From: a virus
Direction: 5' to 3' (one strand)
Length of the DNA: 33,717 nucleotides
Virus record (IMG/VR): IMGVR_UViG_3300005664_000029
Span: 1-33,717 of that record
The notes under the pieces are model-generated. The model saw nothing but the letters and a program-made list of their open reading frames with translations, ran no database searches and was not told where the DNA came from. Positions 1-33,717 of the stretch are shown piece by piece. Position 1 is the stretch's first letter. Each line of letters starts with the position of its first letter. A program made the translations under genes and the position numbers.

Positions 1-114
1 CTTGATTCAACAGAGAAAAGAACCAGTGTGCTGGTTCTTTCATCAACTGCGTCAGCGTATAACCGTTATAGAATCGCAAGAATATTGCGACCATCTTGAT
101 AAGCCTTACGCCGT
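1..114. repeat. Terminal direct repeat, left copy
   Basis: These 114 bases are identical to the last 114 bases of the window. The tail chaperone reading frame runs through the join without interruption, so the window is a closed circle or a permuted, terminally overlapping molecule rather than a genome with a gap. The copy ends exactly at the first T of a run of nine T. A true short terminal repeat of the virion DNA cannot be excluded, but an assembly overlap is the simpler reading. Confidence 0.97.
17..40. other. Perfect 10-bp inverted repeat inside a coding region
   Basis: AAAGAACCAG and CTGGTTCTTT are separated by four bases and pair perfectly. The element lies inside the frameshifted extension of the tail chaperone, about 75 nt downstream of the slippery site on the minus strand. 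It recurs at 33620-33643 because it is part of the terminal repeat. No U tract follows on the minus strand, so it is not a good terminator. A role in the frameshift or simple codon coincidence are both possible. Confidence 0.6.
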
Positions 115-495
115 TTTTTTTTGGTCACCGTCTAGTTTGATGCCACGCTTTTCAAGTTCCTTGGTGTCGGCTGGTTGTGCCGATTCGACGAACAGGTCAA
201 TCAGCGCAAGAAGCTGTTCCATGTTCAATTTGTATTCCTTGAGTGCTGGCACAATGTTGGTCAAACCGTTCTTCAGATTGTCCATCACCTCTGACATGTT
301 GTCGATGTCGATGTTGTCACCAGCGTTCTGAATCTTTTGAAGCTTGCTGCCAAGTTTCGCAAGTTCAATCAAATCTTCAAGTGACGGTGGGTCGAATTCA
401 ATGATGTTGCCACCAATTTTGACACGCTTCTTCGACTGACCGAGTGTGTCCAAGTCCAAGTCAAATGTTGCGTCGTTTTGCGGTGTTTGCGTCAT
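106..495 (-). CDS. Tail assembly chaperone, short (unshifted) form
   Basis: A 129-residue acidic protein between the tail terminator gene and the tape measure gene. This is the fixed place of the lambda gpG-type chaperone, which coats the tape measure protein in the cytoplasm while the tail tube assembles. The sequence gives little direct homology that I recognise; the call rests on size, position and the frameshift signal at its 3' end. The start follows AAAGG and the recurring GACGATATG initiation sequence. The last codons lie on a run of nine A (plus-strand T at 114-122). A -1 shift there joins it to the downstream frame at 33422, giving a longer form of about 225 residues. The unshifted protein ends with Lys-Lys-Thr-Ala. 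Confidence 0.8.
   Translation of the reverse strand: MTQTPQNDATFDLDLDTLGQSKKRVKIGGNIIEFDPPSLEDLIELAKLGSKLQKIQNAGDNIDIDNMSEVMDNLKNGLTNIVPALKEYKLNMEQLLALIDLFVESAQPADTKELEKRGIKLDGDQKKTA
114..122 (-). other. Programmed -1 frameshift site (A9 slippery run)
   Basis: On the minus strand the chaperone gene ends CAA AAA AAA ACG GCG TAA. A -1 slip on A AAA AAA moves the ribosome to AAC GGC GTA AGG and then through the join into an open frame ending at 33422. No stop codon intervenes. The G/GT chaperone pair of long-tailed phages is known to be made this way. The same A9 run could also cause transcriptional slippage. Confidence 0.8.
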
Positions 496-512
496 ATCGT
501 CATGATACCTTT

Positions 513-2997: not shown

Positions 2998-4266
2998 TTA
3001 GGAAACAGTACCAGTGCCGATGACACAGAATGCTTCAGGGAATTTGACAAGCGCAACCATGCGTGTAACGGCACGAAGTGCTGACATGTCCTGTTCGTAC
3101 AGATTGACTTCTTGTTCATCTGCATCGGTGACAGTGGCTTCTTTGCCCTCTGTCAGAACAAGTCCACGCTTGACGTACAGTTTGACACGCTTCAGGTCAC
3201 CGAAGACTGTGAATCCACGGTTGCTGCCGCCGTCCTGTACTGATGGCAAGACGTCAACTAGAACAACAGGTGTACCCCATGGTGTCTGTGTGCCTGATGT
3301 CAGCGGAATCATGTATTCGCCTGATGTGCTTGCTTTGTTCTGACGAACAACATTCCACACGGTGCGGTGCATGTAGTGCTTGCCGTTCTTTGCACTTGCT
3401 GTTGGCACTTTCGCTTCAGCGTTCAAAAGGTCATCCCAAGTGATTGAGGTGATTGCTGCACCAACAGTTTCAGTTGCAACACCAGCGGTTTCAAGAATAC
3501 CAGTACCAACACCGCTTTGGTTGTACAGACTGCCGCCGTCGTCGGTGAACACTAGTTCATCAGCGATTCTTGCACGTTCCTCTGCAAAACCTTGTGTGAC
3601 TTCAGCCCAAAAGTCAATTGCTGCATCTTCAACAAGTTCGTCTGTTGCGATGGCAATTGCTGCAAACTTGCGAAGTTCAACAAGAATGCGGTCGATTGTC
3701 AGCTTCGTACCCTTTTTCTTCGCACCCTGACCAGTTTCGTACATGGTCACGTTTGAACCACGCTTGTTGGTCTTGATGCTGTTGGTGCTGATGTTTCGAA
3801 CGTCAGCTTCGGTGAATGCTACACCGTAATCAGCTGCAAGCTTTTCAACTTCAGCTTCGAATTCAGGGTCAGCCACAATGTAGCCACCGTCTGCATTCAC
3901 GTCAGTGCTTGCATACCCTGCTTTTTCAATGTTGCTGATTGCAACACTGTTCAACGCTTTCAAAGCGCTGCGGTCACCCTTTGTGAGTGCCATTGCTGAA
4001 CGCATAAGACGCTGCGGTGCTGAAAGTGCTTTCAGTGCCTTTGTTGCTTCGTCTTCGTCAGCGTCGTCGTCACCCTCTGGTGCGTCATCGCCTGCACCCT
4101 TGGTGCTGACATTCTTTTTGACGACTTTTTCTGCTGGCATAGCTGCTTTGACAGCTTCGTCAACAGTTGACTTGATGGTGTCGCCCATACCTTTTGCGAC
4201 TTCGGCTGCAATTGCTTTCACAGCTTCGTCGTCAAGTACAGTTTCGATTTGCTCATTCTTTGGCAT
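2998..4266 (-). CDS. Major capsid protein, HK97 fold
   Basis: A 422-residue protein. Residues 1 to about 115 are helical and highly charged with an acidic Asp/Glu run, as in the scaffolding delta domain removed by the head protease. The rest reads as an HK97-fold capsid protein: a long central helix (Glu-Ala-Glu-Val-Glu-Lys-Leu), a Thr-Asp-Glu-Leu-Val-Glu-Asp segment typical of the family, an Asn-Gln-Ser-Gly-containing region, and a C-terminal Tyr-Val-Lys-Arg-Gly-Leu-Val-Leu. Its place right after the protease gene, five bases apart, supports this. The ribosome site AAAGAGGGG is among the strongest in the window, as expected for the most abundant protein. Confidence 0.92.
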   Translation of the reverse strand: MPKNEQIETVLDDEAVKAIAAEVAKGMGDTIKSTVDEAVKAAMPAEKVVKKNVSTKGAGDDAPEGDDDADEDEATKALKALSAPQRLMRSAMALTKGDRSALKALNSVAISNIEKAGYASTDVNADGGYIVADPEFEAEVEKLAADYGVAFTEADVRNISTNSIKTNKRGSNVTMYETGQGAKKKGTKLTIDRILVELRKFAAIAIATDELVEDAAIDFWAEVTQGFAEERARIADELVFTDDGGSLYNQSGVGTGILETAGVATETVGAAITSITWDDLLNAEAKVPTASAKNGKHYMHRTVWNVVRQNKASTSGEYMIPLTSGTQTPWGTPVVLVDVLPSVQDGGSNRGFTVFGDLKRVKLYVKRGLVLTEGKEATVTDADEQEVNLYEQDMSALRAVTRMVALVKFPEAFCVIGTGTVS

Positions 4267-4271
4267 AATCG

Positions 4272-5138
4272 TTACCCCTCTTTGAGTTTATTGTTTATAG
4301 ATGCAATCAACAGTTCGGAAACTTTGTCGACTGCTTTCGCATTGCTGCGAACAAGAACAAGACGGCGCACGGTTTTCACTTTCGTGTCACCATTTGCATC
4401 GTCGTCGTCTTCTTCGGTGTCCGTGGATGCCGCATATGCGGTTTCCAGTGCCGAAGTCAATGCTTTGAGTGATGCAATGTGCGATTTGATTTCATCTTGC
4501 GGCATTGATTTGATTTTGTCAACCATTGCTTCTTGTTCGAAGTCAGCGAATGACTTGCGAAGTGCGGCGGCTTTCTCTTTGCCGACACTCTTGGATGTGA
4601 TAAGCGCATCACGGTGTGCGCCAACTGGTACAACAGAAACTTCGTACAGTTCCAGCTTTTCAATTGTCATGTAGTCGTCTGACCATTGCTTGACCTGACC
4701 ACCAAGTGATACAGCGTTGATGACGCCATCAAGTATCAAATCATAGACTTGTTTTGCGAAGTCGTATTTCTCAACAGCCAATTTGATGCGTGCCATCAAG
4801 TTGCCGTCTTCAGTCCAAATCTTCGTGATTTTGCCAATAGGTAGTCCAGAATAATCGTGACCCCAAAGCACAGTTGGATTGCGCTTGATTTGCTTCAGGT
4901 CGATGCCCTCAACAAGAATCTTTTCGAAGTAGCGGTCTTCGTTGCTGTTTGATACGACTGTTTCAAATTCACCGTATGCAAGCGCTTTGCCTGTCGCACG
5001 CTCAATTGCGACAACTTCAGACTTGCCATCTTTTTCAACGGTCTTGGTTGCCGTTTCAATAACTGCACCACAGTGTATTTTTTCATCGGCTGTTTTCTCA
5101 ATGCCGAACCCTGCGAATGTTGCTGCAATTGTACTCAT
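4272..5138 (-). CDS. Prohead protease, HK97 type
   Basis: A 288-residue serine protease that matures the procapsid by removing the delta domain of the capsid protein. Visible family marks are the Tyr-Gly-Glu-Phe start of the core, the catalytic His in Leu-Trp-Gly-His-Asp (about residue 94), and the nucleophile Ser in Asn-Ala-Val-Ser-Leu-Gly (about residue 144). The following Glu-Leu-Tyr-Glu-Val-Ser-Val-Val-Pro-Val-Gly-Ala segment is almost invariant in this family. The C-terminal 100 residues are charged and helical and may be cleaved. It lies between the Com-like gene and the capsid gene, with an AAAGGGAAAGG ribosome region. Confidence 0.93.
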   Translation of the reverse strand: MSTIAATFAGFGIEKTADEKIHCGAVIETATKTVEKDGKSEVVAIERATGKALAYGEFETVVSNSNEDRYFEKILVEGIDLKQIKRNPTVLWGHDYSGLPIGKITKIWTEDGNLMARIKLAVEKYDFAKQVYDLILDGVINAVSLGGQVKQWSDDYMTIEKLELYEVSVVPVGAHRDALITSKSVGKEKAAALRKSFADFEQEAMVDKIKSMPQDEIKSHIASLKALTSALETAYAASTDTEEDDDDANGDTKVKTVRRLVLVRSNAKAVDKVSELLIASINNKLKEG

Positions 5139-5195: not shown

Positions 5196-5441
5196 TCAAG
5201 CCGTATCTGTTCGACAATCGGGGTCTTTGCCCACTCTGGATTGTACTGGTGTTATCATATCGCTTGCTGAATCAGCTGTCAACATAAGCGCTTCATCGGG
5301 GTATACAACAACCCGAATCAAATCTTTGTGCTTGAACTCTTTTGTGCCTTTGCATGGCATGGTCAAGTCAGCGAATAAACCTTTGAACAGTAGCCGACCA
5401 CACAATGGACATCTGAATTCACGTTCGTGCATATGCTTCAT
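5196..5441 (-). CDS. Com-like zinc finger protein
   Basis: An 81-residue protein beginning Met-Lys-His-Met-His and carrying Arg-Cys-Pro-Leu-Cys-Gly-Arg-Leu-Leu-Phe-Lys-Gly. This is the signature first half of the Com/Mom-regulator zinc finger family found next to phage portal and MuF genes. In that family a second CxxC follows; here only one Cys is present (Met-Pro-Cys-Lys-Gly-Thr) and the fourth ligand position is Thr. His residues nearby (Lys-His-Lys-Asp) might complete the site. The start overlaps the portal-MuF stop as TGATG, so it is translationally coupled. In Mu, Com is an RNA-binding translation activator; the target here is unknown. Confidence 0.65.
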   Translation of the reverse strand: MKHMHEREFRCPLCGRLLFKGLFADLTMPCKGTKEFKHKDLIRVVVYPDEALMLTADSASDMITPVQSRVGKDPDCRTDTA

Positions 5442-7474
5442 CAATCAGCTGGAAACAACCAGCAATGACAGTTTGCGTGTGCGTGTGCGTTTTCAACGGC
5501 ATCGTAGTCTTGCACCACTTCACCGCCATCTTCACCGACCATTGTGCCACCCTTTGGCACATATGAAGATTCGACACTGATGATTGTTCCATCCATAGCA
5601 CGACAGTATTGGCATGGGTTTGAACCCAATGCACGCCACACTTTGCGCTTCACGCCTGCTTGCTGAAAACCAAGCTGAACGCCTTTGTTGATTGTCTTGT
5701 GTGATTCGCTATCAGAAAGCCGTTCGGTTCGGTAGCCAATAGCCTTTTCGTATACCGCATTGACACGCTTCGTCAGTGCCGCCAAATCTTCACCAGCGTT
5801 GACACCAGCTGCGATTTCAGCTTTCAGTTTGTCGACGGTTTGTTTGGTGAAGTCGGTCATGACACGTCGTGCGGCTTCTTTTGCGGCGTTCTGTGCGCTT
5901 GTGCTGAATATGAAGTCATCTGTGTTGTCTAGCAACGCCAACGCCGTTTCTGCACCCTGCTGGATGGCAAGAAGCATCAATGGAATCAACCATTCAAGTG
6001 ACTTTTCAGCTTCTTCGGCTTCAGACGGCATGATTTCTTCATATGCTTTGGTGGTGGCGCTGCCGTCCTGTACTGATGCGGCGTATGCTGCCAAGTTGCT
6101 GATGACGAATTCTTGCTGTGCTTTCAGATTCTTCTTCAACTCTGATTTGTAGCGTTTGACGACTTTGGCGTCAATCTTGTCTAGCTGTTGAAAAAAAGTT
6201 GATTCGGCTGCGTCCTTTTTCGCAACCGTGATGCGGCGTACTGTCTTGACCGCTTTTGTGCTGTTATCGCTTCCAGCATCTTCAATTGATGTCATGTTGA
6301 ATGGGATGTATAGACGGTCACCAGCCGCACCAACCGTTGGCAATCCACGGCGTTGGCGCACTTCGTTCACTGTCATCACACGGTTCACCAGCTTGTCTTC
6401 TTCATTCAGCTGTCGGTCAACGTCTTCGGGTATCTGTGAAACGTGGCTGACGATGATTGCTTCTTCTTTGAAGTTGCGACGTAGAATGTTTTGAATGCCG
6501 TCATCCAAGCGCACTTGCTTCGGGTCAATGACACGCTTGCTGAATACATAGTCACCAGCTTCGATGTTGGCACGACCCAAACCACCTTGGTCGAAGTCAC
6601 CAAGAATGAACTTTGGCATTCTGAACATCTTGAAGATTTTGTCTTCAGTCAATGACTTCAGCTTTTCCATGTCCAAGTCACCAAGTGACAAACCAATCTT
6701 GGTGAATGATGCGTCAGCGCCACGAATGAACAAAGTCTTGCCGACGTTGGCAAGCCCCTCTGTTTTCTCTTTCCATGCGGCTTTGACTTTCTTGAACTGT
6801 TCACGCTCAATCTTGCCGTTGATGGTCAAAATACCTGATGGTGATGCTTGATTCTTGATGAAGTTGCGTTGGAATAGTGCGGTGTCTTCTTCGGTTTCAA
6901 TGTAGATGATGCCTGCTTCAACCGTACCAATGCCATAGTATTCATCTTCAGGATTGAATGTCTTGAAGTGTTGCACTTCGTCAACGTCCAGTGGGATTTC
7001 AGTTCCGCTGTCGTCACGGAATGTGTAGCCGATGACATCACCATCTTTGCCGATGGCTGCACGCACACGGTCTGGTCGCATCAAGTACACTTCACGAACC
7101 TTGCGGCTTCGTTCTTCAACTGACAGATACCAATAAGCGTTGCCGACTAGTTCAAGAAACGACTGTGTGGCAACAAGCAAATCAAACTTCGATGTCAGCC
7201 GTGCGTTTGGTCGTTCCAGCACCTTTTCAAATTCATGCTGCGTCTGTGTCAGCTTTCCAGTGCGGTTGTCTTTCTTGTTGAATATCGGTTCGTATTTGGC
7301 AACGTCTTCAGCGATGGCGCTGATACAAGTCATCACAATGCCACGGTATAGCTTCAGAAATTGTCGCTTCGCACGATAGCGTGAATATGATGTTTGCCAA
7401 GTGCTGAATGATTCACCAGCTGATGCGAATGCCCTCTGGATTCCGTGTGTTATTGCGTTTGTGATTTTTCCCAT
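5441..7474 (-). CDS. Portal protein fused to a MuF-type domain
   Basis: A 677-residue fusion. Residues 1 to about 400 are an HK97-type portal, with an N-terminal helical segment, Tyr-Trp-Tyr-Leu-Ser, Met-Arg-Pro-Asp-Arg-Val and a long region ending in Glu-Val-Arg-Gln-Arg-Arg-Gly-Leu-Pro, which is typical near the portal C-terminus. Residues from about 430 onward are helical. They then carry a MuF (SPP1 gp7-like) end with Lys-Val-Trp-Arg-Ala, Asn-Pro-Cys-Gln-Tyr-Cys, Met-Asp-Gly, and His-Ala-Asn-Cys-His-Cys-Trp-Leu. The portal is the DNA gate; MuF domains are carried in the head and may be ejected. Direct fusion is known in Gram-positive phages but less common than separate genes. A possible promoter lies in the gap upstream. 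Confidence 0.92.
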   Translation of the reverse strand: MGKITNAITHGIQRAFASAGESFSTWQTSYSRYRAKRQFLKLYRGIVMTCISAIAEDVAKYEPIFNKKDNRTGKLTQTQHEFEKVLERPNARLTSKFDLLVATQSFLELVGNAYWYLSVEERSRKVREVYLMRPDRVRAAIGKDGDVIGYTFRDDSGTEIPLDVDEVQHFKTFNPEDEYYGIGTVEAGIIYIETEEDTALFQRNFIKNQASPSGILTINGKIEREQFKKVKAAWKEKTEGLANVGKTLFIRGADASFTKIGLSLGDLDMEKLKSLTEDKIFKMFRMPKFILGDFDQGGLGRANIEAGDYVFSKRVIDPKQVRLDDGIQNILRRNFKEEAIIVSHVSQIPEDVDRQLNEEDKLVNRVMTVNEVRQRRGLPTVGAAGDRLYIPFNMTSIEDAGSDNSTKAVKTVRRITVAKKDAAESTFFQQLDKIDAKVVKRYKSELKKNLKAQQEFVISNLAAYAASVQDGSATTKAYEEIMPSEAEEAEKSLEWLIPLMLLAIQQGAETALALLDNTDDFIFSTSAQNAAKEAARRVMTDFTKQTVDKLKAEIAAGVNAGEDLAALTKRVNAVYEKAIGYRTERLSDSESHKTINKGVQLGFQQAGVKRKVWRALGSNPCQYCRAMDGTIISVESSYVPKGGTMVGEDGGEVVQDYDAVENAHAHANCHCWLFPAD

Positions 7475-7521: not shown

Positions 7522-9054
7522 TCACACGACTTCAAAATCATCATCGTCTATCATTTCCGTGTTGTCGGCAAAGGTCAATGCGCCTGCATCGGCAACGTCT
7601 GGTGAAGTGACAGTCATGTTCAATTCACGCAATCGCTTCTTCAAATCTTCTTTCGGTTCGATTTGGAATCTTGACGAACTGTCTGTCTTAAAGTATACAA
7701 CAGATAATTCTTGCCACTCTGGTGAATCCACAATTTTGCCGCCATTTTCCAGCCACACTTTGAATTGATAGTACATGTACGCACGCATGTTTTTGTACTT
7801 CTTCGGTTCTGGTGCGCTGCCGCCGAACATCACTTTGTTCACATAGCAATCAAGTTCATACAGCCTGTCTGATACGCCTTGACCCAATCCACCATAGTCA
7901 TTGCCGACATTGCCGCTGTTGACTTCGAAATGGTCTTTGTATTTCTGCACTGTGACAACGTGCTGCATCGTGTCATCGGTCTTGTTGGTTTCCAGTAGCT
8001 TCATGACAGCTGGTGTGCGCAAAACGAATGACGAACGGTCTGAACCGCCACCAGCGAAGTCGTTTCCAAGTCGGCGTTCACCTTTCAGAACCCTTGTGCC
8101 GTTTTCCAGTTCGTGCGCCTGTTCATCGTCAGCAAGCATTGCATTGTATTCTTCTTCACTGATGATGGCGTTTTCAATAAGCGAATCAGGAAACAAACGA
8201 CGGTAGCCACCTGTGACCACTTCATCTTTCGGTGGGAATTTGACTTCATACAGAATATCGAAGAATGGTTCTTGCCGCATTTCTTCAATGAAGTCGATTG
8301 TATAGCGCCCCTCTTTCACAGCCTGCTGCCAATCAACACGGATTTTGAAATATTTCTTCGACTTGCTGGTGCGTTCAAAGTGGTTGTTGTAGAACGGATT
8401 GCCAATCTTCATCAAGAACGAATCTTTGAAGCCACCCAACATGCGCATCACCATTGCTTGCAAGTCATCTGGTATCAATGCGGCTTCGTCTTCGATGATG
8501 TTGCGTGACCCTTGACCAGTCAGCGATTCTTTCACACGCTTGCGGTTTCGGGCATCAGCCGTCAGTGTGCGAATTTCACCGCCGTTTTTCCATGTGATGC
8601 GTTCTTGGTTTCGTTTGTGCTTCAGCTTTTCAGCCTTTGGCAAATCTTCAAGTTCAATCTGTGCGATGAACACTTCATGGTCGAATATGTGCTGAATCGC
8701 TTTGCCCATGATGATGTCGGCTTTGGTTTGGTCTGGTGCAAGCACCGTCCATTTCTCTTTCTTCGACTGTGACCGCAACAGCAACGCCATTGATATGGTT
8801 TCAGACTTTCCATACTGCGTGGTGGTTTCCACCTGTACACGAAGATGCCGTTTGAATACGATTGCACCGAAGATGTCAGCTTGACCGTCAGTCAGTCGGA
8901 ATGGCAAGCCGTCGTCGTCTTTGAAGAATTGCGCACATAGGCGCTTTGCAATATCACGTTCAGCTTTCAATTGCGCTTCGGGTGAAGCGTACAGCGCAAT
9001 ATCAAGATGCTGGCGGCTGGTCTGAATCGTCTTCTTGACTAGTGTCTTGTCCAT
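7522..9054 (-). CDS. terL: Terminase large subunit
   Basis: A 510-residue packaging motor. The ATPase half has an atypical Walker A around residues 77-85 (Thr-Thr-Gln-Tyr-Gly-Lys-Ser) and a Walker B at about 185-190 (Asn-Ile-Ile-Glu-Asp-Glu). The RNase H-like nuclease half has candidate metal ligands Asp332 (Gly-Asn-Asp-Phe), the Gly-Asn-Asp-Tyr-Gly-Gly-Leu-Gly segment near residue 386, and an Asp near 485-489. Length is normal for the family. The start lies 53 bases inside the end of the small-subunit gene, with AGAAAGG upstream. It pumps DNA into the procapsid and cuts it. I cannot tell pac from cos packaging from the protein alone. Confidence 0.93.
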   Translation of the reverse strand: MDKTLVKKTIQTSRQHLDIALYASPEAQLKAERDIAKRLCAQFFKDDDGLPFRLTDGQADIFGAIVFKRHLRVQVETTTQYGKSETISMALLLRSQSKKEKWTVLAPDQTKADIIMGKAIQHIFDHEVFIAQIELEDLPKAEKLKHKRNQERITWKNGGEIRTLTADARNRKRVKESLTGQGSRNIIEDEAALIPDDLQAMVMRMLGGFKDSFLMKIGNPFYNNHFERTSKSKKYFKIRVDWQQAVKEGRYTIDFIEEMRQEPFFDILYEVKFPPKDEVVTGGYRRLFPDSLIENAIISEEEYNAMLADDEQAHELENGTRVLKGERRLGNDFAGGGSDRSSFVLRTPAVMKLLETNKTDDTMQHVVTVQKYKDHFEVNSGNVGNDYGGLGQGVSDRLYELDCYVNKVMFGGSAPEPKKYKNMRAYMYYQFKVWLENGGKIVDSPEWQELSVVYFKTDSSSRFQIEPKEDLKKRLRELNMTVTSPDVADAGALTFADNTEMIDDDDFEVV

Positions 9055-10186: not shown

Positions 10187-10328
10187 GTTCTTCAAGTTCC
10201 AGTTCGATTTCTGTTTTCATAAGCCATGACGCAAGTATCATCAATCTGATACCGAACCAGAAACGTATGCTGCGACGTGTCTGATGCTTCACATTGGCTT
10301 TGACGTCGATTGTGATGGTCTTGTTCAT
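10170..10328 (-). CDS. Small protein with hydrophobic middle, unknown
   Basis: A 52-residue frame: a basic N-terminus (Met-Asn-Lys-Thr-Ile-Thr-Ile), a short hydrophobic stretch (Phe-Trp-Phe-Gly-Ile-Arg-Leu-Met-Ile-Leu-Ala-Ser-Trp-Leu) and an acidic C-terminus rich in Glu-Leu. The charge pattern could support a membrane-associated helix. The ATG has a clear AAAGGG ribosome site and overlaps the stop of the glycosyltransferase gene. It is too short for most gene finders. Its place in an overlapping operon supports it being expressed. Confidence 0.6.
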   Translation of the reverse strand: MNKTITIDVKANVKHQTRRSIRFWFGIRLMILASWLMKTEIELELEEHEKSA

Positions 10329-11194
10329 GATGTTTGACCCTTTCTATTGTTTTGAAGTTTCCATTCGTCACCAACTTTGTGATATTCGGCAACGGTGCAA
10401 TTGTCATTCGGGTATAGAACATTGCCGTGCATGTCGGCGTGTCCAGTGATGACCGTCCAGTCAATCAAATTGATGTACCCTTTTTTGCGTAGTTCCAGCC
10501 CATAGGTCATGTCAACGCTGAAGCATTCATCGTGCCAATAGAACGTATGGTCAAGAAACAGTTGCATCGGTGTTATGAAGCAATACAGCCCACCGCCATC
10601 AATCTTTTCGAAGAATGACGACTTGTTGAACGGTAGCGTTGCCACTTTGGTCGGGTTTTCGATGTCATCAGTGCGCCATGCACCAATCATGCGTATGCCG
10701 TGCCTGCCGACCTGTACGCCCTCAATCAAGCCAACTTTCATGCCTGCGTCGGTCACTTCTTTGTAGTCGCTCAAAAGCCGCTGCAATGCGTCAGATTGAA
10801 TCACCGTGTCATCTTCAACCATGAACAGCATGTCGAACTGGCGCTTCATGCCACGAATGGTGTCTTGCACCATGCCCAACATTTCTTTGATTCGTTCACG
10901 TCGATAGAACAAACGAACTTCGTGCGGCGCTTGACGCTTGCTGTTGCCGAACCTGTATGCGAATGGCACTTCATACTTTTCAAACTTGTCTGTGATGAAG
11001 CTTTCTGTGATGTCCACGTTGTCGATGAACACCAGCAATTCGACTGTGATGTCAGTGAAGCGGTTCATTGCCGCCAACTGCTTTGCCTGCATTTCTACCG
11101 CCCACTTGCGTGTCAGCGGCATGACAATCAAGACGCTGTTGATTCGATTATCTGCTGAAACACTGTCTGGTAGTACGGTTTGAGTTGTTTCCAT
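10325..11194 (-). CDS. GT-A type glycosyltransferase-like protein
   Basis: A 289-residue protein with an N-terminal Rossmann-like start (Ser-Val-Leu-Ile-Val-Met-Pro-Leu-Thr), a DxD-like metal motif in Met-Val-Glu-Asp-Asp-Thr, and a later Gly-Gly-Gly-Leu-Tyr plus Trp-His-Asp-Glu. These match GT-A fold transferases (GT2-like), where the acidic pair binds the nucleotide-sugar metal ion. I start it at METTQ because GGAAAGGGG precedes that ATG; a longer upstream reading has none. It overlaps the end of the upstream glycosyltransferase by 67 bases. Acceptor is unknown: virion protein, DNA base or host surface glycan are all possible. Confidence 0.7.
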   Translation of the reverse strand: METTQTVLPDSVSADNRINSVLIVMPLTRKWAVEMQAKQLAAMNRFTDITVELLVFIDNVDITESFITDKFEKYEVPFAYRFGNSKRQAPHEVRLFYRRERIKEMLGMVQDTIRGMKRQFDMLFMVEDDTVIQSDALQRLLSDYKEVTDAGMKVGLIEGVQVGRHGIRMIGAWRTDDIENPTKVATLPFNKSSFFEKIDGGGLYCFITPMQLFLDHTFYWHDECFSVDMTYGLELRKKGYINLIDWTVITGHADMHGNVLYPNDNCTVAEYHKVGDEWKLQNNRKGQTS

Positions 11195-12752: not shown

Positions 12753-12753
12753 T

Positions 12754-13413: not shown

Positions 13414-13415
13414 GG

Positions 13416-19166: not shown

Positions 19167-19170
19167 ATCG

Positions 19171-20179: not shown

Positions 20180-20224
20180 AGTGTATCAAAGATTGTCGTG
20201 ATTGTCAATACTTTTCTATACTTT
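20180..20224 (-). promoter_or_regulatory. Early promoter with direct-repeat operator (copy 2)
   Basis: TTGACA at 20208-20203, 17 bases, then TACACT at 20185-20180. The upstream box is AAAGTATAGAAAAGTA, one base different from the other three copies. The -10 is the weakest of the four. The operator overlaps the stop codon of the preceding operon. Confidence 0.85.
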
Positions 20225-21526: not shown

Positions 21527-21534
21527 ATCGTGCT

Positions 21535-22736: not shown

Positions 22737-22770
22737 ATCGTCAAATATACCTTTCTTTGATTATGATTCT

Positions 22771-22811
22771 ATTGTATTTCATCAAACTTCAATTGTCAAT
22801 ACTTTTCTGTA
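22771..22811 (-). promoter_or_regulatory. Early promoter with direct-repeat operator (copy 3)
   Basis: TTGACA at 22799-22794 and TACAAT at 22776-22771, 17 bases apart. The upstream box is AAAGTACAGAAAAGTA, identical to copy 1. A weak terminator of the previous short unit ends about 12 bases upstream of the box. Confidence 0.9.
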
Positions 22812-22931
22812 CTTTTCCAGACAAAACAAAAACCGCCCTTTGATAGACGGCTTTGCAATTTTCGACAAATCTTCTTCAGTTACGCAATCACTTGTCGGTG
22901 ACCATTCGCTGAATGTGGAATCAATACGCAT
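22782..22931 (-). CDS. Possible 49-residue protein in an isolated transcript
   Basis: A frame of 49 residues (Met-Arg-Ile-Asp-Ser-Thr-Phe-Ser) behind early promoter copy 4. It runs through the terminator hairpin and into the next promoter, so its last 20 residues (for example Lys-Tyr-Arg-Lys-Val-Leu-Thr) are dictated by regulatory DNA. No strong ribosome site is seen. It may be a small early protein whose 3' end was overwritten, or the transcript may be a small RNA. I cannot decide. Confidence 0.35.
   Translation of the reverse strand: MRIDSTFSEWSPTSDCVTEEDLSKIAKPSIKGRFLFCLEKYRKVLTIEV
22823..22853 (-). terminator. Terminator of the short early transcript
   Basis: CCGTC and GGCGG (with one G-U pair), extended by two A-U pairs and one G-U pair, close a loop of eight bases on the minus strand, followed by TTTTTGTTTTG. 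It ends a unit that starts about 120 bases upstream at promoter copy 4. Confidence 0.65.
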
Positions 22932-22948
22932 AATTCATTCTTGATTCT
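22823..22948 (-). ncRNA. Candidate small RNA between promoter copy 4 and terminator
   Basis: A promoter and a terminator bracket about 125 bases holding only a doubtful 49-codon frame. Abundant, short early transcripts are a known phage strategy. The predicted 5' end is about seven bases after the TATACT box. No known RNA family is recognised. Confidence 0.35.
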
Positions 22949-22950
22949 GC

Positions 22951-23202
22951 TTACAGTATAGCACTGATTGTCTTATTTGTCAATACTTTTCTGTACTTTC
23001 GTTGATATAACAGAGGTGCAAAAAAACCACCTTTCGGTGGCTTTCGTGCTTCAAACTCAACCTCAAGCTTGATGTGTTCGACTGCCGACAGGATGACGGA
23101 AACCGCCACACGGTCTTTGCCTGTCGTGCTACTGAACAACTTCACGATTGTATCAGCTTTGTGGCTTGTCACGCAATACGTTGTTGTACAGCATGACGGC
23201 AA
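22951..23202 (-). CDS. Doubtful frame between holin and early promoters
   Basis: An 83-codon frame that overlaps the holin end, then crosses a strong terminator and promoter copy 4. Its middle (Val-Ser-Val-Ile-Leu-Ser-Ala-Val-Glu-His-Ile-Lys-Leu-Glu-Val-Glu-Phe) looks protein-like, and a GTG at about 23146 could start a shorter form. There is no ribosome site at either start. Without it, 23043-23152 holds no other gene. I list it so the stretch is accounted for. Confidence 0.25.
   Translation of the reverse strand: MPSCCTTTYCVTSHKADTIVKLFSSTTGKDRVAVSVILSAVEHIKLEVEFEARKPPKGGFFAPLLYQRKYRKVLTNKTISAIL
22955..22996 (-). promoter_or_regulatory. Early promoter with direct-repeat operator (copy 4)
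   Basis: TTGACA at 22983-22978 and TATACT at 22960-22955, 17 bases apart, with the same AAAGTACAGAAAAGTA box upstream. Its -10 is close to consensus. This is the first promoter after the terminator that closes the lysis genes. Confidence 0.9.
23020..23042 (-). terminator. Strong terminator after the lysis genes
   Basis: On the minus strand AGCCACC, loop GAAA, GGTGGTT, followed by a run of T. The five central pairs are perfect. It ends the late transcription unit and separates it from the early promoters. Confidence 0.9.
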
Positions 23203-23471: not shown

Positions 23472-24896
23472 CTATACCTTTATGTTCAAGAAAGCCAATA
23501 TTGCTTTGACGGCTTTCATCAACCAGTTCACGTTTTCTTCGATGGTTGGTTGTGTTGGTGCTGGTTCAACATCGCCACCATCGGCGTCAACTGGTTTCAT
23601 GTCCAAGTCATCAAGCCGTATACCGTTGGCAATCTTCTTGTCGGTGCTGTATACGGTGATGGCGTATTTGTGACCGTGCCATTCAGTGGTGCTGGAAATA
23701 TCAAGCTTTGTACCCCTTGGAATGACTTTGACTGTTGAACCATCTTCAAGATTCACCAAGTCTGTGTCTGCCCTTGCGTACATCGGCACGTCGGTGATGT
23801 CTTGCCAATTCTTCAGCCATTCTGGTTTTTCATTGACTGGTGGTTCAGCTGGCACGCCGACGTCTGCACGTTTGATGCCGTTCGGCATTGCCTGTGTTGC
23901 TGAATAGCTTGAAACAAGATATTCGACACCGCCAACTGTGGTTGATTTGCTGAAGTCAATCCATGTACCTTGACCAAGTTGTTTGATGACGCTGCCGTCG
24001 TTCAAATTCACAATCGGTGTCTGTGGCGTCAGAACCATCAACTTCACTGGTGTGATGTCTTTCAGATTCTTTTGCCATTCTGGTGTCACTGGCACTGGTG
24101 CTGGTGCGACGTACACAGTCAAGTCGTTGGCATTGAAGCCGTTGGTGATTCGCTTTTCAAAGCTGTATTGTGTGACCAGATATGTGGCATTCAATGTCTT
24201 GTTGATTGCACGACCATAGATGACAATTTGTTCACCTCTGTTGAAATCACGAACACCGTTGCCGAATCCACCCCATTGCGTTTGGTTGAAATTCCAAAGC
24301 TTGGTTGGCTGCTTGTTGGTGACGTATGCCACTGGTGCTGGTAGCTTTTCCCAAACAATGTTTGCGTTTTGTGCTGGTGGCGGCGTGGATGGTGAACCAT
24401 ATTTCTGTTGCCAAATTTCTTTCGCACGTCGGTTCACATCAGCCCAATCAATAGGATTGCAACCAGTGGTCATCCAGCGCCAATGCGGTGACCATGGTGT
24501 GTTGTGCATGTTCACGTCAGCAATACGTTCACAAAGTGTTTCGAAGATGCGGTTTGCTTTCGCTTTGTCACCGCCTGCACGCCATCGGTAGATGATTTGT
24601 GGGTCGCACTCAATCGAATATGTGAATGGATTTGCGCTGCCTGTTGCCCATGATGTGTCTTCTTTGCGCACAAGTGGCTGAACAACGCCATCACCCACAA
24701 CGTCTTGCGCTGACGCCTGACGTGCTGCATTCATCAATGTGGCAACGACACCACTGAATGATGGAAAGCGTGTCGGGTCATCCCACCAATGACCAGCACC
24801 GAATGTGATGATGCGTGGTCGACCATAAAAAGCCGCTGTTTGACCAGCTGGCGTGTAGTTTGGTGATTGTCTGAACGGTAGTAGTTGATAGCTCAT
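23472..24896 (-). CDS. Endolysin: N-acetylmuramoyl-L-alanine amidase with three repeats
   Basis: A 474-residue lysin. Residues 15-155 are an Amidase_2-type domain: zinc ligands are probably His36 (Gly-Ala-Gly-His-Trp-Trp), His138 and Cys146. The His-Cys spacing of eight equals that of T7 lysozyme. Glu96 is a candidate catalytic base. Three modules of about 75 residues follow (about 180-260, 272-346 and 358-432). Each contains a Leu-Val-x-x-Tyr-Ser-like strand and ends in (Pro/Ala/Thr)-Asn-Gly-(Ile/Phe). They likely bind the cell wall. Residues 454-474 (Val-Asn-Trp-Leu-Met-Lys-Ala-Val-Lys-Ala-Ile-Leu-Ala-Phe-Leu) form a hydrophobic helix that may touch the membrane. It cuts the amide between muramic acid and the peptide. 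Confidence 0.85.
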   Translation of the reverse strand: MSYQLLPFRQSPNYTPAGQTAAFYGRPRIITFGAGHWWDDPTRFPSFSGVVATLMNAARQASAQDVVGDGVVQPLVRKEDTSWATGSANPFTYSIECDPQIIYRWRAGGDKAKANRIFETLCERIADVNMHNTPWSPHWRWMTTGCNPIDWADVNRRAKEIWQQKYGSPSTPPPAQNANIVWEKLPAPVAYVTNKQPTKLWNFNQTQWGGFGNGVRDFNRGEQIVIYGRAINKTLNATYLVTQYSFEKRITNGFNANDLTVYVAPAPVPVTPEWQKNLKDITPVKLMVLTPQTPIVNLNDGSVIKQLGQGTWIDFSKSTTVGGVEYLVSSYSATQAMPNGIKRADVGVPAEPPVNEKPEWLKNWQDITDVPMYARADTDLVNLEDGSTVKVIPRGTKLDISSTTEWHGHKYAITVYSTDKKIANGIRLDDLDMKPVDADGGDVEPAPTQPTIEENVNWLMKAVKAILAFLNIKV

Positions 24897-24940
24897 ATCG
24901 TCATTTTTCCTTTCATTAGTTCATATGCTTATGATACCAC

Positions 24941-25687
24941 TTATCGACAAAGCAGTTTGATTCCCAATAAATCAACGGTACATCGCTGTGGTGGCTGTAC
25001 TGGTTCGGCTGGTTCTTGGTTGGATGGTGGCACGGCATTGTTGTTTGTCGTGTTGTTTGTGGTTGTTTGATTGTTTTGCGAATTATCGTCACCACCACCC
25101 ACAAATGAAGTTGAACCGCTTTCTTGCAACTGCTGCTGTTGCTGCTGATTCTGAAGTTTTTCACGTTCCTGCTTTTCTTCTTTGGCAACAATGCTGAAGT
25201 TTTGCGTATAATACTGAATTGTTTCGTGCCGCACGCCGAATGGCGTCTGGATGTCGTACACGTTGGTGAATTGAATCACACAGTTTGAACCGATTGGCAC
25301 GTTGGCTGGTAGCGTGCCGATGAATACCGTTTCACCCTCAAGCTTTCTTTCTCTTGCTTGCGTGCTGAAAAATTCACCCTCTGCTGATTCTTTTGGTGGT
25401 GCAATCACGCCACGGTAGTTTGAACAGAACACTTCACGAAGAATCTTCACATCACCCTTGTAGTGTGTTTCACCAAAGAATATGCCGCTGACGTCTTGTG
25501 ATGGGTAGTATGTGGCTTTGTCGGTAGCAACTGGCACTTTGATGTCAGCAAGCTTCAGTGGTCGTGCTTGATAGTATATCAACGCAACAAGCGCCATCAA
25601 TCCGAAGACGATGGCGGCAACCGTGATGGCGTCAAACGCCTGTCGATGGTTGATTTTGAATCTTTTGATTTTATTTGGTTTGAACAC
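24941..25687 (-). CDS. Membrane-anchored surface protein with Gln/Asn-rich stalk
   Basis: A 248-residue protein. Residues 19-41 (Ile-Thr-Val-Ala-Ala-Ile-Val-Phe-Gly-Leu) are one membrane helix after a basic N-terminus, so most of the chain is outside. Residues 45-165 are beta-rich and Ig-like (Ala-Thr-Tyr-Tyr-Pro-Ser-Gln-Asp-Val-Ser-Gly). Residues 170-225 are a Gln-run and Asn/Thr-rich low-complexity stalk. The last 13 residues carry two Cys (Arg-Cys-Thr-Val-Asp-Leu-Leu). Placed between holin-like genes and the endolysin, it could be a lysis-linked envelope protein or a surface protein that blocks other phages. No family recognised. Confidence 0.6.
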   Translation of the reverse strand: MFKPNKIKRFKINHRQAFDAITVAAIVFGLMALVALIYYQARPLKLADIKVPVATDKATYYPSQDVSGIFFGETHYKGDVKILREVFCSNYRGVIAPPKESAEGEFFSTQARERKLEGETVFIGTLPANVPIGSNCVIQFTNVYDIQTPFGVRHETIQYYTQNFSIVAKEEKQEREKLQNQQQQQQLQESGSTSFVGGGDDNSQNNQTTTNNTTNNNAVPPSNQEPAEPVQPPQRCTVDLLGIKLLCR

Positions 25688-29149: not shown

Positions 29150-30687
29150 GGCGCTATCACATCCACACCACCAATTGTTGAAATGCCGACAGTGAAGAAT
29201 GTTCGGAATGTTTTCTTTTTGACAGTCAGTATTTGCGAAAACTTTCCAGCTTCCCATCGGTTGACGAATTTCTTGATGACAAATACGTCGGCGCTGCCAA
29301 ATACCGACACATTGACCGCATCACCAATTTGAAGCGCTGGATTTCCTTTCACCGTCAAGATGTATGTGTTGGCATATTCAGATTCATCATCAAGAATGAT
29401 TTTTGCTTTCGACTGTGCTTCACCCTCATCATTGAAAAATTCGTTTTCGATTGTCAGCACACGTTCATCGTACTTTCCGACACTAGTGCTGTCTTCTTCA
29501 CGAATGTACAATTCTTTGACAATTTTCGCTGGTCTTGCAAACAATTCAAGCGTCGTGATGAATACGTCGAAACTGTTGGTGTTGGTGAATTCCATCTGAT
29601 AAGACTTTGAAAACTGTGTATTTCCCGATAATGAAAAGTTGCTTGAAACTGCACTACCTGAACCATCTTCAGCCGTGTTGGTGGTGTATAGCGAAGTTGT
29701 TGCGCTGGTGATGTATACAGGGTCATCAACGGTGGTCACAGGGTCTTCGAAGTCAGCCCATAATGTCAGCGATGAACCAGCTGGCACACGAACGGCTGAT
29801 TGCAATTCCCAAAACTTTTGATTTGCCTGCACTTCACGCACGTTGGCTTTGATTTCAACTACGTTGATGATGTCGTCTTGCTTGCTGGTTTGAATGTCGA
29901 TGATGTTGCTTTCATTGAAGAACCATACAGGTGATGACGAATAGTTTTGCCGATTCTTGAATCTGATGACACCTTCTTCATCCATGTAGAAACGACCCAT
30001 TTCAGCTTGCATCAGTTTCTTCACGACGTCACCGAACTTTGAACCCTTGTCAAAGAAAGCGAAAGCGATGATGTTGAAGCCAATGTCGAACTGATACTGT
30101 GTTGGTGATATACCGAACGCAACCAACAGCGCTGCAAGTATTTCATCAGTTCGCATGTCTTGGTACATGACGGCTTGGTCAAGCGGTCTGTTGAATAGCG
30201 AATACATGAAGTCGATGCAATGAAGCGAAATCGTTTTTGACTTTTCTTCGACAGATGGCATCTTTTCAGTCAATCCAACGAATTGCGGCACGGCTTCAAA
30301 TCCGAAACCACCAGCCAATTTGATTGGTCGGTATGGCAAAATGAATTCGTCAATCACTGAACCACGGTTCGGCGTGAAATAGTTGTCGTGATTTTCCATC
30401 ACCACGTCGGCTTGCGCAAGCGTGGTTGAATTGAAGTTTTCTTCTTGGCGTGTGACTTCAATGCTTTTGATGCGGTATGAATAGTCATCGTATTGGTATT
30501 TGTCCCATTCAGCCACTACATCGCCAACACCTTTGATGATGTCAGAACCACCGATGGTTGATACGCCGATTGTGAAGAATGTGACAGATGGCAAATACTG
30601 TCTTGGAAACGACATCAAAGCACGATGCGTGATTCTTCGCATCGCACCGTTTGCTTTTTGGCTGAACGCTGATGTCGTCGTCTGCAT
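29146..30687 (-). CDS. Tail hub / minor tail protein
   Basis: A 513-residue protein downstream of the tape measure and distal tail genes. Lys-Ser-Ile-Glu-Val-Thr-Arg-Gln-Glu near residue 73 and Val-Val-Met-Glu-Asn-His-Asp-Asn-Tyr-Phe-Thr-Pro-Asn-Arg-Gly, then Leu-Pro-Tyr-Arg-Pro-Ile-Lys-Leu, are typical of phage minor tail/hub proteins. Residues 37-51 and 497-511 are nearly the same (Phe-Phe-Thr-x-Gly-x-Ser-Thr-Ile-Gly-Gly), 11 of 15 identical, at opposite ends. The protein would close the tube and hold the tail-tip proteins. The start follows a GGGGGC stretch with a weak ribosome site. Confidence 0.75.
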   Translation of the reverse strand: MQTTTSAFSQKANGAMRRITHRALMSFPRQYLPSVTFFTIGVSTIGGSDIIKGVGDVVAEWDKYQYDDYSYRIKSIEVTRQEENFNSTTLAQADVVMENHDNYFTPNRGSVIDEFILPYRPIKLAGGFGFEAVPQFVGLTEKMPSVEEKSKTISLHCIDFMYSLFNRPLDQAVMYQDMRTDEILAALLVAFGISPTQYQFDIGFNIIAFAFFDKGSKFGDVVKKLMQAEMGRFYMDEEGVIRFKNRQNYSSSPVWFFNESNIIDIQTSKQDDIINVVEIKANVREVQANQKFWELQSAVRVPAGSSLTLWADFEDPVTTVDDPVYITSATTSLYTTNTAEDGSGSAVSSNFSLSGNTQFSKSYQMEFTNTNSFDVFITTLELFARPAKIVKELYIREEDSTSVGKYDERVLTIENEFFNDEGEAQSKAKIILDDESEYANTYILTVKGNPALQIGDAVNVSVFGSADVFVIKKFVNRWEAGKFSQILTVKKKTFRTFFTVGISTIGGVDVIAP

Positions 30688-30697: not shown

Positions 30698-31066
30698 CTA
30701 ACTTACCGCATATTGTTCTTTTAGTGTCAGCGTGAAGCCTTGTATGATTTCGCCATTCAGTCTGATGTCACGTTCGCTGATGACAAGCTTCATCGTCGCT
30801 GTGATTCCATATTCAGGTATTTCAACGATTGGAATTGCTTCATTCGCATATTGCGCATTGTATAGCGCACGAATGGTGTCATAGTCATCGGCTTTCAGCT
30901 TTTCCCATCCAACAGCCCATGCACGACGGTTTGCGGTAAAATCCGTGTACATTGAACCATCCAACGTGACATTTTCGCTTTCAATCGCTGTCGGAATCTC
31001 ACGCAACGTGGAATATAGCGGCAAAACCGTTGAATCTACTATGATGCTCATGTCTTTTGTTGCCAT
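30698..31066 (-). CDS. Distal tail protein candidate
   Basis: A 122-residue protein between tape measure and hub. It is beta-rich with Trp-Ala-Val-Gly-Trp and Ile-Thr-Ala-Thr-Met-Lys-Leu-Val-Ile-Ser-Glu, and ends Gly-Phe-Thr-Leu-Thr-Leu-Lys-Glu-Gln. Small proteins of this position form the ring at the end of the tail tube. It is shorter than a typical Dit, so it may be only the ring domain. Start and tape measure stop overlap as TAATG. Confidence 0.6.
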   Translation of the reverse strand: MATKDMSIIVDSTVLPLYSTLREIPTAIESENVTLDGSMYTDFTANRRAWAVGWEKLKADDYDTIRALYNAQYANEAIPIVEIPEYGITATMKLVISERDIRLNGEIIQGFTLTLKEQYAVS

Positions 31067-33414
31067 TATGCTGTACTCTGTCCTTTCACTTTACCGCCCC
31101 CAATTTCGTCATACCCTCTTGCACGCAAATCTTCGTTGACCGCTTCAAGCCCATCAGCAATGATGTCACGGAATTCGCTTCGTGAACGTGCAACGATTCC
31201 GCTTTGCTCAAGCGTCACGTTGATTGGCGCTTGTGCGATTGCACCGTTTGGATTTGCGTCAGCTGCACCGTTCATTGCTGAAATGCTACCAGAAAGCGCA
31301 CCAGCTGATGCCATGTCCATTGCGTTCAATGTGCCATACATGCCACGATATACGCCAACGACGTTTCTTGCGCCCTGTGACACGTTCTGCAAGCTGTCTG
31401 ACATGCCGTCGCTGATTTTGCCTGAAATGGTCGTGGCGGCTTTCACGACGGCTGAACCAGCACGTTCAATGCCGTTCTGCATACCCTGCATCATGAAGTC
31501 ACCCATTTGTGCCATGACCCTTGATGGTGATTTGATGCCGAAGAATTTTTTGACTGCATCCAATGCGCCACTTGCGATTTCTTTCACCTTGTTCACGACT
31601 GCATCTTTTGCGCCCGACACACCTTTTACGATTCCGTCAATCAGGTTCTTTCCAGCGTTGATTGCGTCACCGACGAAATTCTTGATGCCGTCGATAGCCT
31701 TGCGAATACCGCCGACCACAGCGTCTTTGATATTGCCGACGATGCCTGCAATTCGGTTGTATGCTGCCATTATCGGTGAAATGATTGCGTCACGAATCCA
31801 GTTGAAGACGCCACGCACGAAGTTCAGTACCGCATTGAATACCGACACAATCACGTTCCAGATTGCACCAGCCACGGTTGAAATGACGTTCCAGATGGCG
31901 TTGAACACCGTTGAAATCACATTCCAGATTGCGGTGAATACTGCGACGTAGAAATTGAACAGTGGCTTCAAGAACGTGTTCACAATCCAGTTGAAGACAC
32001 CAAGTAGTATGACGAAGATGATTTGCGCTATGGTTGAAACGATAGTCCACACGACGGTCAAGATGCCTGTGAAGATTGACCACCATATTTGGAAAAGCGC
32101 ACCAAGTACGAACATGATGGCATTGAATACTGGTTGAAGAATTGTTGTCCATAACATCATGATGCCGTTGAAGACGAATTGCACCACAGCCCACACCGCA
32201 TTGAAGACGGTGGTGAAGATGTTCCATACCTGTTGCACAATCCAAACCAACAGCTTGAACACGCCGACGATGACCAGTACCGTGGCAATCAATGGTGCGA
32301 ATGCGACAGCCAAAACGGTCAACACGACTTTCTTGATGGTTTCGAAGTTGTCTTTGAACCACTGAACGATATTGCCGATGAATGTGCCGATTGCTTTGCC
32401 CACGGCTTTGATTGTGTCACCAAAGTATATGAAGATGCCCACCAGAACCGCTATACCAGCCGCCACAGCCGCCGCAACGACGCCAACCGTACCAATTGCC
32501 ATGAATGCCGCTATCGCTGCGCCTACGATGCCGAAAACAGCCAACAAGCCCAACAATACCGTGACGGTTGCTGCAATGGCTGCCACAAGTTTTGGATTTT
32601 CCTTGACCCAATTGACAAACTTTTCAAGCAACGGTGCGATGGTTTCCATGATTTTCGTCAGCACTGGTTGAAGCGCCGTACCGATTGCCACTTGTAGATT
32701 GGTGGCTTGTGTCTTTTGACGTGCCAATGCACCACCGAATGAATCAGCAAGTTTTGCGGCGTCGCCTTGCTGGTTGGTTGTTTCCTTGATAATTCCGTTG
32801 TATAGCGCCATGCGCACGCCGACGTCATCACCAGCTTTCGCCAAGTCTTGTGCTGAATAGCCTGCATCGACAAGCATGTTCGACAAGTTTTTGGTGACAC
32901 CAGCGTTGTCGACCAGTGCGCTGTTTCCGTTCTTGATACCCTCTGTCGCACCGACGATTGCTTGACCGAATTCCAATGACCCTTGACGACCAAATGCCGC
33001 CGAATCCTTGAATCGTTCCATCAGCTTGATTGCTTGCGGCAAACTGAATCCAGCTGCCAACAGGTTTTTCAAACCAGCCGCCGAATCACCCAATGGCATC
33101 AAACCATCAGACGCCAATTCTTGCGCTGCTTTCTTGGTTGCGTCGATGTCGTTTCCAGTACCCTTTGCAACTGAAGACAACCCCATCAATGCGTTTTGCT
33201 GCTTCACAGCGGCATCAACAGACTTTTCAAGCCAATTGACTACTTGATTGAGTGCCAAACCAGCTGCCGCACCAAGTGCCGCCATTTCGACTGTTGCGCC
33301 TTTGAGTTTTGCACCAAATGTGTCGGCATCTTGACCAGCCGCTTTTGACTTCGACTTATACTTGGAATCGTCCAAGTCTAGGTCGTAGTAGATTGTGCCG
33401 ATTTTTTCTGCCAT
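31066..33414 (-). CDS. Tape measure protein
   Basis: A 782-residue protein, the longest in the window. The N-terminal part is helical (Leu-Asp-Leu-Asp-Asp-Ser-Lys-Tyr-Lys is the usual opening). The middle has several long hydrophobic helices (about residues 280-345 and 360-440) and then an 11-residue repeat around residues 487-535 (Ala-Ile-Trp-Asn-Val-Ile-Ser-Thr-Val-Phe-Asn). The C-terminus carries Phe-Phe-Gly-Ile-Lys-Ser-Pro-Ser-Arg-Val-Met, a family hallmark. It sets tail length; by the usual 0.15 nm per residue this gives a tail of roughly 115-120 nm. It follows the tail chaperones directly. Confidence 0.92.
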   Translation of the reverse strand: MAEKIGTIYYDLDLDDSKYKSKSKAAGQDADTFGAKLKGATVEMAALGAAAGLALNQVVNWLEKSVDAAVKQQNALMGLSSVAKGTGNDIDATKKAAQELASDGLMPLGDSAAGLKNLLAAGFSLPQAIKLMERFKDSAAFGRQGSLEFGQAIVGATEGIKNGNSALVDNAGVTKNLSNMLVDAGYSAQDLAKAGDDVGVRMALYNGIIKETTNQQGDAAKLADSFGGALARQKTQATNLQVAIGTALQPVLTKIMETIAPLLEKFVNWVKENPKLVAAIAATVTVLLGLLAVFGIVGAAIAAFMAIGTVGVVAAAVAAGIAVLVGIFIYFGDTIKAVGKAIGTFIGNIVQWFKDNFETIKKVVLTVLAVAFAPLIATVLVIVGVFKLLVWIVQQVWNIFTTVFNAVWAVVQFVFNGIMMLWTTILQPVFNAIMFVLGALFQIWWSIFTGILTVVWTIVSTIAQIIFVILLGVFNWIVNTFLKPLFNFYVAVFTAIWNVISTVFNAIWNVISTVAGAIWNVIVSVFNAVLNFVRGVFNWIRDAIISPIMAAYNRIAGIVGNIKDAVVGGIRKAIDGIKNFVGDAINAGKNLIDGIVKGVSGAKDAVVNKVKEIASGALDAVKKFFGIKSPSRVMAQMGDFMMQGMQNGIERAGSAVVKAATTISGKISDGMSDSLQNVSQGARNVVGVYRGMYGTLNAMDMASAGALSGSISAMNGAADANPNGAIAQAPINVTLEQSGIVARSRSEFRDIIADGLEAVNEDLRARGYDEIGGGKVKGQSTA
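31820..31951. repeat. 33-bp imperfect tandem repeats in the tape measure gene
   Basis: About four units of 33 bases, each coding the 11-residue Ile-Trp-Asn-Val-Ile-type repeat. The best units start at 31853, 31886 and 31919. Such repeats let tail length change in steps by slippage. Confidence 0.75.
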
Positions 33415-33421
33415 TTTCGTT

Positions 33422-33717
33422 TCACATTTCTTTCTTTAATTTCTCAATACCACTGTTGTCATCATAGTCTTTCAATATCTCAAGTATATCACGACTGTTG
33501 TCAACATAAGCACGACGCAATTCATTTGCCTGCTGCTGTTTCATGTGTGGGTATGCCGACACGCCCAACAGTTTCAAATGTTCTTCAGCATCCAATTTGA
33601 AAGCTTGATTCAACAGAGAAAAGAACCAGTGTGCTGGTTCTTTCATCAACTGCGTCAGCGTATAACCGTTATAGAATCGCAAGAATATTGCGACCATCTT
33701 GATAAGCCTTACGCCGT
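33422..33717 (-). CDS. Tail assembly chaperone, C-terminal (frameshifted) part
   Basis: The downstream half of the G/GT-type chaperone pair. It is open in the -1 frame from the A9 slip site through the circular join, so at the window end it is cut. If expressed alone, an ATG at 33697 could give 91 residues, but its ribosome site is poor. The part after the join is helical, with Leu-Asp-Ala-Glu-Glu-His-Leu-Lys and a basic-acidic end (Glu-Lys-Leu-Lys-Lys-Glu-Met). The long form binds the tape measure protein to the tube subunits. Confidence 0.8.
   Translation of the reverse strand, partial: GVRLIKMVAIFLRFYNGYTLTQLMKEPAHWFFSLLNQAFKLDAEEHLKLLGVSAYPHMKQQQANELRRAYVDNSRDILEILKDYDDNSGIEKLKKEM
33604..33717. 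repeat. Terminal direct repeat, right copy
   Basis: Exact copy of bases 1-114. Remove one copy to get the circle of 33,603 bp. Confidence 0.97.

Follow-up and report, generated by a model that had tools for sequence, protein, structure and literature searches.

The genome recorded in IMG/VR as IMGVR_UViG_3300005664_000029, a stretch of 33,717 nucleotides that we analysed whole and refer to as the window (W), raises the question of why a phage should lack some short DNA words altogether and carry others in one orientation only. We consider it about 75% probable that this genome was shaped by escape from a large and changing set of restriction systems, whose sites were either deleted or all aligned in one direction.

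Palindromes absent from the genome

An initial annotation, made from the letters of the sequence, claimed that GATC, GGCC, CCGG and CGCG are all missing. Exact counts gave zero for each, the junction of the closed circle included, against maximum-order Markov expectations of 126, 80, 62 and 101. Other palindromes are present, as had been stated (GCGC 128, TCGA 178, CATG 168, AGCT 114 and GTAC 101), and CCWGG is indeed absent (CCAGG 0, CCTGG 0). TTAA (7) and CTAG (19) are rare, yet in line with the maximum-order Markov expectation. The accompanying remark that start codons read ATG-GCA and never ATG-GCC adds nothing, because ATGGCC itself contains GGCC.

As a null model we permuted synonymous codons such that protein, codon usage and dinucleotides were all preserved. 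Word figures from these tests are given as observed/expected counts and, for the window, refer to its coding strand; expectations come from 60–300 shuffles on automatic gene calls, and p-values are Poisson. A codon shuffle without dinucleotide control overcalled TAA/TTA words, and the dinucleotide-preserving shuffle was used instead. The automatic calls held a few false opposite-strand open reading frames (ORFs), and the window matrix computed on coding-strand ORFs only gave the same result. Codon usage itself may be shaped by avoidance, so the null probably understates the effect.

The four palindromes are missing under this null as well (GATC 0/71, CGCG 0/54, GGCC 0/30, CCGG 0/28). Interrupted palindromes are also absent, namely CCNGG (0/12), GGNCC (0/12), CTNAG (0/15) and GASTC (0/15), whereas GAWTC is common (126 vs 92 expected). 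Of the 64 six-base palindromes, the coding segments of the window contain only 19, compared with 59 in lambda.

Asymmetric words lost from both strands or kept in one orientation

All words of four to six bases were catalogued at thresholds of observed/expected <= 0.12 and p < 1e-5; with approximately 5,400 words per genome, these thresholds allow about 0.05 false hits. The catalogue for the window holds 4 palindromes, 17 asymmetric words lost from both strands, some of which overlap, and 8 that are missing in one orientation only. Shuffled versions yielded no word in every genome tested, lambda yielded one, and six control contigs related through the glycosyltransferase yielded 0–1 avoided words each. 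The losses in T7 include GATC and CCWGG.

Among the words lost from both strands, GGAG/CTCC and CAGAAG have no copy in the whole genome, GAAGG/CCTTC has one in total (a GAAGG at 29972..29976 on the minus strand, with no CCTTC), and CCCAG is likewise gone. The one-way words are kept on the minus strand, which is the coding strand, as GCAG, GAGC, GAGA, GTAA, GCCAG, GGCGA, GGAAC and AGACC, with their complements lost. Thus CTGC stands at 1/79 with GCAG at 195/211, TTAC at 3/47 with GTAA at 16/31, GCTC at 0/19 with GAGC at 13/27, TCTC at 2/19 with GAGA at 15/20, CTGGC at 0/27 with GCCAG at 29/40, TCGCC at 0/21 with GGCGA at 18/41, GTTCC at 0/16 with GGAAC at 26/31, and GGTCT at 0/14 with AGACC at 29/24. 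The sole CTGC of the minus strand lies at 24952..24955, against 203 GCAG there, and the whole genome holds 30 AGACC and no GGTCT. The 4.1 kb of non-coding DNA has the same pattern (27 GCAG, 10 GTAA, 7 AGGC and 4 AGACC, and none of their complements). An adenine on a single strand, tried as the mark of a Type III site, fits seven of the eight one-way words and fails for GTAA/TTAC, as it does for GTCAG and TCAGG in the close relative G2, and was dropped.

An equal shortage of non-palindromic words, which the initial annotation had named as grounds for doubt, was found in part, many such words being missing. Since these words also behave like restriction sites, the absence of the palindromes keeps its meaning.

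The asymmetry follows the DNA strand in distant relatives

Recognised genes in the window all lie on one strand, and we therefore turned to phages that share its endolysin and carry genes on both strands: G6 (IMGVR_UViG_3300025536_000009), G7 and G8. The test words for these three genomes were picked on pooled data, and the individual strata are near zero. For the eight one-way words of G6, the lost orientation occurs at 1/35.5 in plus-strand genes and 0/126 in minus-strand genes, with the other orientation at 43/65.6 and 117/140.9. In genes of the two directions, the lost orientation stands at 0/38 and 1/9 in G7, at 0/12 and 0/9.2 in G8, and at 0/4.4 and 0/26.8 in the TM7 phage DolZOral124_53_65 (MG269973). 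The missing orientation is thus missing from genes of both directions, which indicates selection on DNA rather than on messenger RNA (mRNA). The asymmetry follows the DNA strand in G6, G7, G8 and the TM7 phage, and would apply to the window by extension, these relatives being distant. The kept orientation differs from word to word, which argues against one general skew.

The salivary phage OR148987 (L121) has one-way GATGCC (0/16, with GGCATC at 37/23), a loss seen in genes of either direction. Contig L006, which is without GAAGG, has extreme short-word asymmetry (ACAC 44, CAAG 53 and GGAG 64 copies, each with 0 of the complement), explained by codon use and amino acids. It was rejected as a further case of strand-specific loss, as the shuffle expects 61.5 GGAG and 0.9 CTCC, the latter observed 0 times.

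Turnover of avoided words between close relatives

Close relatives were collected from IMG/VR by searches with the terminase large subunit (TerL) and the glycosyltransferase, and comprise G1 (L002), G2 (L011+L012), G3 (L013, first 20 kb of the contig), G9 (L106+L107) and G10 (L116). The four palindromes are absent from all of them apart from single copies of GATC and CGCG in G2, a pair of CGCG in G3 and one CCGG in G10. Other words vary between lineages. W and G2 have lost GTTCC and CTGGC, which G3 retains; G2 and G3 have lost GTCAG and TCAGG, which are normal in W; G3 has lost CGACG/CGTCG, which is normal in W, G2 and G9; and W and G9 have lost GGTCT, which is normal in G2 and G3. G2 counts 29 GGTCT and 35 AGACC.

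The window and G2 align over 28.8 kb at 85% identity, and five-base words overall survive at a baseline of 55%. None of the 27 GGTCT sites of G2 survives in W, and none of the 29 GTCAG sites of W survives in G2. The changes were synonymous at 22 of the 27 lost GGTCT sites and at 25 of the 29 lost GTCAG sites, so that the turnover is recent, lineage-specific and mostly synonymous. Random site-by-site mixtures of W and G2, made in silico, regain about 12 GATC, 8 GGCC, 8 CCGG, 11 CGCG and 15 CTGC. That mixtures recreate the sites suggests that both lineages kept removing or avoiding them after their split, and avoidance is by this measure maintained by ongoing selection.

The initial proposal that the phage escaped restriction by losing sites is strongly supported in that the losses survive a coding-aware null, occur in all close relatives and were kept after divergence. 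It was incomplete in that the strand-specific words went unnoticed, and these words suggest Type III-like enzymes, not palindrome cutters.

One further genome and one further virus group have unusual word counts of their own. On one strand of the 34 kb of G006 (L108+L109), there are 3 copies of the trinucleotide TCG and 63 of CGA; GCGC, CGCG, GGCC and TCGA are absent from this genome, and GATC and CCGG number 310 each. Contigs L036, L055, L100 and many of L039–L105, which carry a related glycosyltransferase, form a separate group in which AGCT, CCGG, CGCG and TCGA are rare by base composition; in three of them that were shuffled, AGCT alone stands up (0 vs 35–57).

Probable restriction escape and its alternatives

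Under restriction escape, some sites would have been deleted outright, namely GATC, GGCC, CCGG, CGCG, CCNGG, GGNCC, CTNAG, GASTC and several six-base palindromes, together with the asymmetric GAAGG, CAGAAG, GGAG and CCCAG. Single-site enzymes would fit both the palindromes and those asymmetric words that are gone from both strands. Other sites would have been turned to face one way (GCAG, AGACC, GCCAG, GGAAC, GGCGA, GAGC, GAGA and GTAA). Enzymes that move along DNA and cut where opposed complexes meet, such as Type III or Type ISP-like enzymes, should spare DNA in which all sites face one way, and one orientation near its expected frequency with the other eliminated is the outcome that such an enzyme would select. 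AGACC is the site of EcoP1I, four-base words like GCAG may stand for several or degenerate sites, and Type ISP or related translocating enzymes offer an alternative to Type III. Type III enzymes recognise asymmetric words, their cutting is efficient between sites that face each other, and one-way DNA is generally refractory to them (PMC3874151). We infer restriction enzymes to be the cause and the one-way words to be Type III-like sites.

Several observations weigh against this reading. Some of the one-way words have four bases, shorter than usual Type III sites, and the listed words partly overlap and are not all independent. The genes of the window are one-stranded, such that selection at the level of DNA rather than RNA is seen in distant relatives only. 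We found no host genome, methylome or restriction enzyme of these specificities, and a published survey reported that Type III avoidance is rare and that strand asymmetry is not systematic (PMC6286503).

One alternative would confine restriction to palindrome-cutting (Type II-like) enzymes and treat the one-strand words as a side effect of codon choice and strand composition. One-stranded genes and the extreme skew that L006 reaches (64 GGAG, no CTCC) make this conceivable, but the shuffle expects 14–79 copies of the missing orientation for the one-way words of the window, relatives of similar composition keep both orientations (of GGTCT in G2 and G3, and of CTGGC and GTTCC in G3), and the loss extends to genes of either direction in G6 and G7. 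This account is already largely refuted, and we regard it as quite improbable. It is still harder to credit that pressure on RNA, from an mRNA-cleaving toxin or unwanted pairing, stripped the words from transcripts. Strand and transcript coincide in the window, and one-strand loss would be expected there, but in G6, G7 and G8 the lost orientation is missing whichever way the genes run, palindromes and both-strand words have disappeared as well, and the non-coding DNA of the window has the same one-way pattern.

Polar motifs of recombination, replication or packaging type exist in phages and bacteria, and every one-way word here does hold one direction along the genome. That the words are functional motifs favoured in one direction is nonetheless very improbable, as the kept orientation is not enriched (see GCAG, GCCAG and AGACC above), the oddity being the near-total absence of the other, and the word set differs between phages that are 85% identical. 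Motif depletion in phages of hosts with clustered regularly interspaced short palindromic repeats (CRISPR) has reportedly been the subject of one study, and avoidance of protospacer adjacent motifs might be considered on that ground. Its likelihood is negligible, because either strand can be targeted and one-way survival would not be expected, and because lineages of the Candidate Phyla Radiation (CPR), the suggested hosts, are reported to be largely without CRISPR-Cas (PMC4742961). Other DNA-level defences with asymmetric modified sites, such as bacteriophage exclusion (BREX), Type I and Type IIG/IIL systems, are unlikely to have caused all of the losses, one-way ones included, even though the loss of GAAGG, CAGAAG and CCCAG from both strands fits single-site enzymes. 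As far as we know, facing sites are not required by these systems, and the tolerance of one orientation at its expected frequency would then stay unexplained. BREX does methylate specific asymmetric sites (PMC7261183), but no Type I or IIG avoidance was found in the survey of viral genomes (PMC6286503).

Returning to restriction escape, we lean slightly towards a broader picture, in which an environmental phage group, probably of ultra-small episymbiotic bacteria, lives under pressure from many Type III-like systems simultaneously and aligns its sites word by word, with turnover between phages that are 85% identical. If so, each genome would record the specificities that its recent ancestors met, and the pace of restriction escape could be read from pairs of phage genomes. 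The word set would also predict the restriction specificities of the host, probably an uncultured one, which could then be traced more easily through its methylome.

A possible saccharibacterial host

The best annotated relative of the multi-domain amidase endolysin (23472..24896, minus strand) is in the TM7 phage DolZOral124_53_65 (30% identity, 93% coverage, E 2e-39); no other protein was found to be shared between the window and this phage. Two contigs with this endolysin, L124 and L125, are clear relatives of the TM7 phage, and loss of GAAGG is common to the clade of the window, G7, L122, L126, L015 and the TM7 phage. The shared endolysin makes Saccharibacteria (TM7) a plausible host. CPR bacteria are largely without CRISPR-Cas, and, among them, those that lack nucleotide biosynthesis are richer in restriction enzymes than comparable organisms outside the CPR (Burstein et al., PMC4742961).

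One TerL scan of genome contigs revealed no prophage, the only match being a distant relative (33%) in a metagenome-assembled genome of Cytophagaceae. The glycosyltransferase was considered as a host clue and set aside; its matches lie in Streptomyces phages and plasmids and among 153 confirmed viral relatives, 80 of which were kept, and they do not resolve the host.

Translation signals and repeats

In the window, which has no GGAG, the commonest six-base word before ATG starts is GAAAGG, and G2, G3 and G9 are alike in this. G6 has lost GAAAG (CTTTC 0+0 vs 69), and GAAGG and GGAG precede its starts. Word loss and the choice of ribosome-binding site are correlated, which suggests that the effect of restriction pressure extends to translation signals; if the broader picture holds, ribosome-binding sites, too, would have been rewritten to obey it.

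A repeated leader, approximately GAAAGG..ATGACGATATGA, occurs at gene starts on the minus strand at 492-520, 17404-17432, 19163-19191, 20139-20167, 21523-21551 and 24893-24921. Four copies of a 65-bp repeat lie on the same strand at 18050-18114, 20160-20224, 22751-22815 and 22935-22999. In these, TTGACA follows a shared AAAGTACAGAAAAGTA, with TACAAT 17 bases on in the best-read copy, and judging by these motifs the repeats are probably a set of sigma-70-type promoters.

Genome organization and gene content

A 114-bp terminal direct repeat (repeat family D3; copies at 1..114 and 33604..33717) closes the window into a circle of 33,603 bp. The genome is siphovirus-like, and all recognised genes are on the minus strand. 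They include a major capsid protein (MCP; 2998..4266, PHROG 10), a head maturation protease (4272..5138), a portal protein with a head-morphogenesis domain (5441..7474), the TerL used as query for close relatives (7522..9054) and a tape measure protein (31066..33414). Megablast of the first 25 kb of the window gave no DNA match to known phages, and tblastn with TerL, portal and MCP gave distant matches only.

The claim that the phage carries no DNA methylase held among the larger proteins, which were checked with Pfam and PHROGs, some small ORFs being left unscanned. The sole methyltransferase domain above the Pfam cut-off is of FkbM type, the same protein also having a marginal match to TRM5/TYW2, and PF04851 (ResIII) is absent from the window. 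Positions 10325-14402 hold a run of glycosyltransferase-like genes with a Fic protein and the FkbM-type methyltransferase, in what is a small phage genome.

Comparison with known systems

About one in ten viral genomes in a published survey had eliminated palindromes completely or nearly so (PMC6286503), and the complete loss of short palindromes from the window resembles this Type II avoidance. Unlike the surveyed cases, the window has lost four four-base, four interrupted and many six-base palindromes at once, and it adds strand-asymmetric losses, for which the survey found no systematic pattern. The TM7 phage DolZOral124_53_65 has, like the window, lost GAAGG/CCTTC, and has its own pair of one-way words (GGATA 0/18 with TATCC 28/29; CCAAG 0/14 with CTTGG 46/39); unlike the window, it has lost no four-base palindrome.

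The closest parallel for the one-way words is T7, in which all 36 EcoP15I sites share one orientation and the DNA is refractory to this enzyme, which needs facing sites, as in the strand-bias model reviewed in PMC3874151; our recount gave 36 CTGCTG and no CAGCAG. As in T7, asymmetric words in the window have all of their copies in a single orientation. However, one enzyme is known in the case of T7, and the missing orientation is expected 7.5 times in T7 coding DNA, whereas the window has at least eight one-way words with 14–79 copies expected for each, and its set changes between close relatives. Escape by orientation, known from T7 and one enzyme, would here extend to many words, in sets that are replaced between close relatives.

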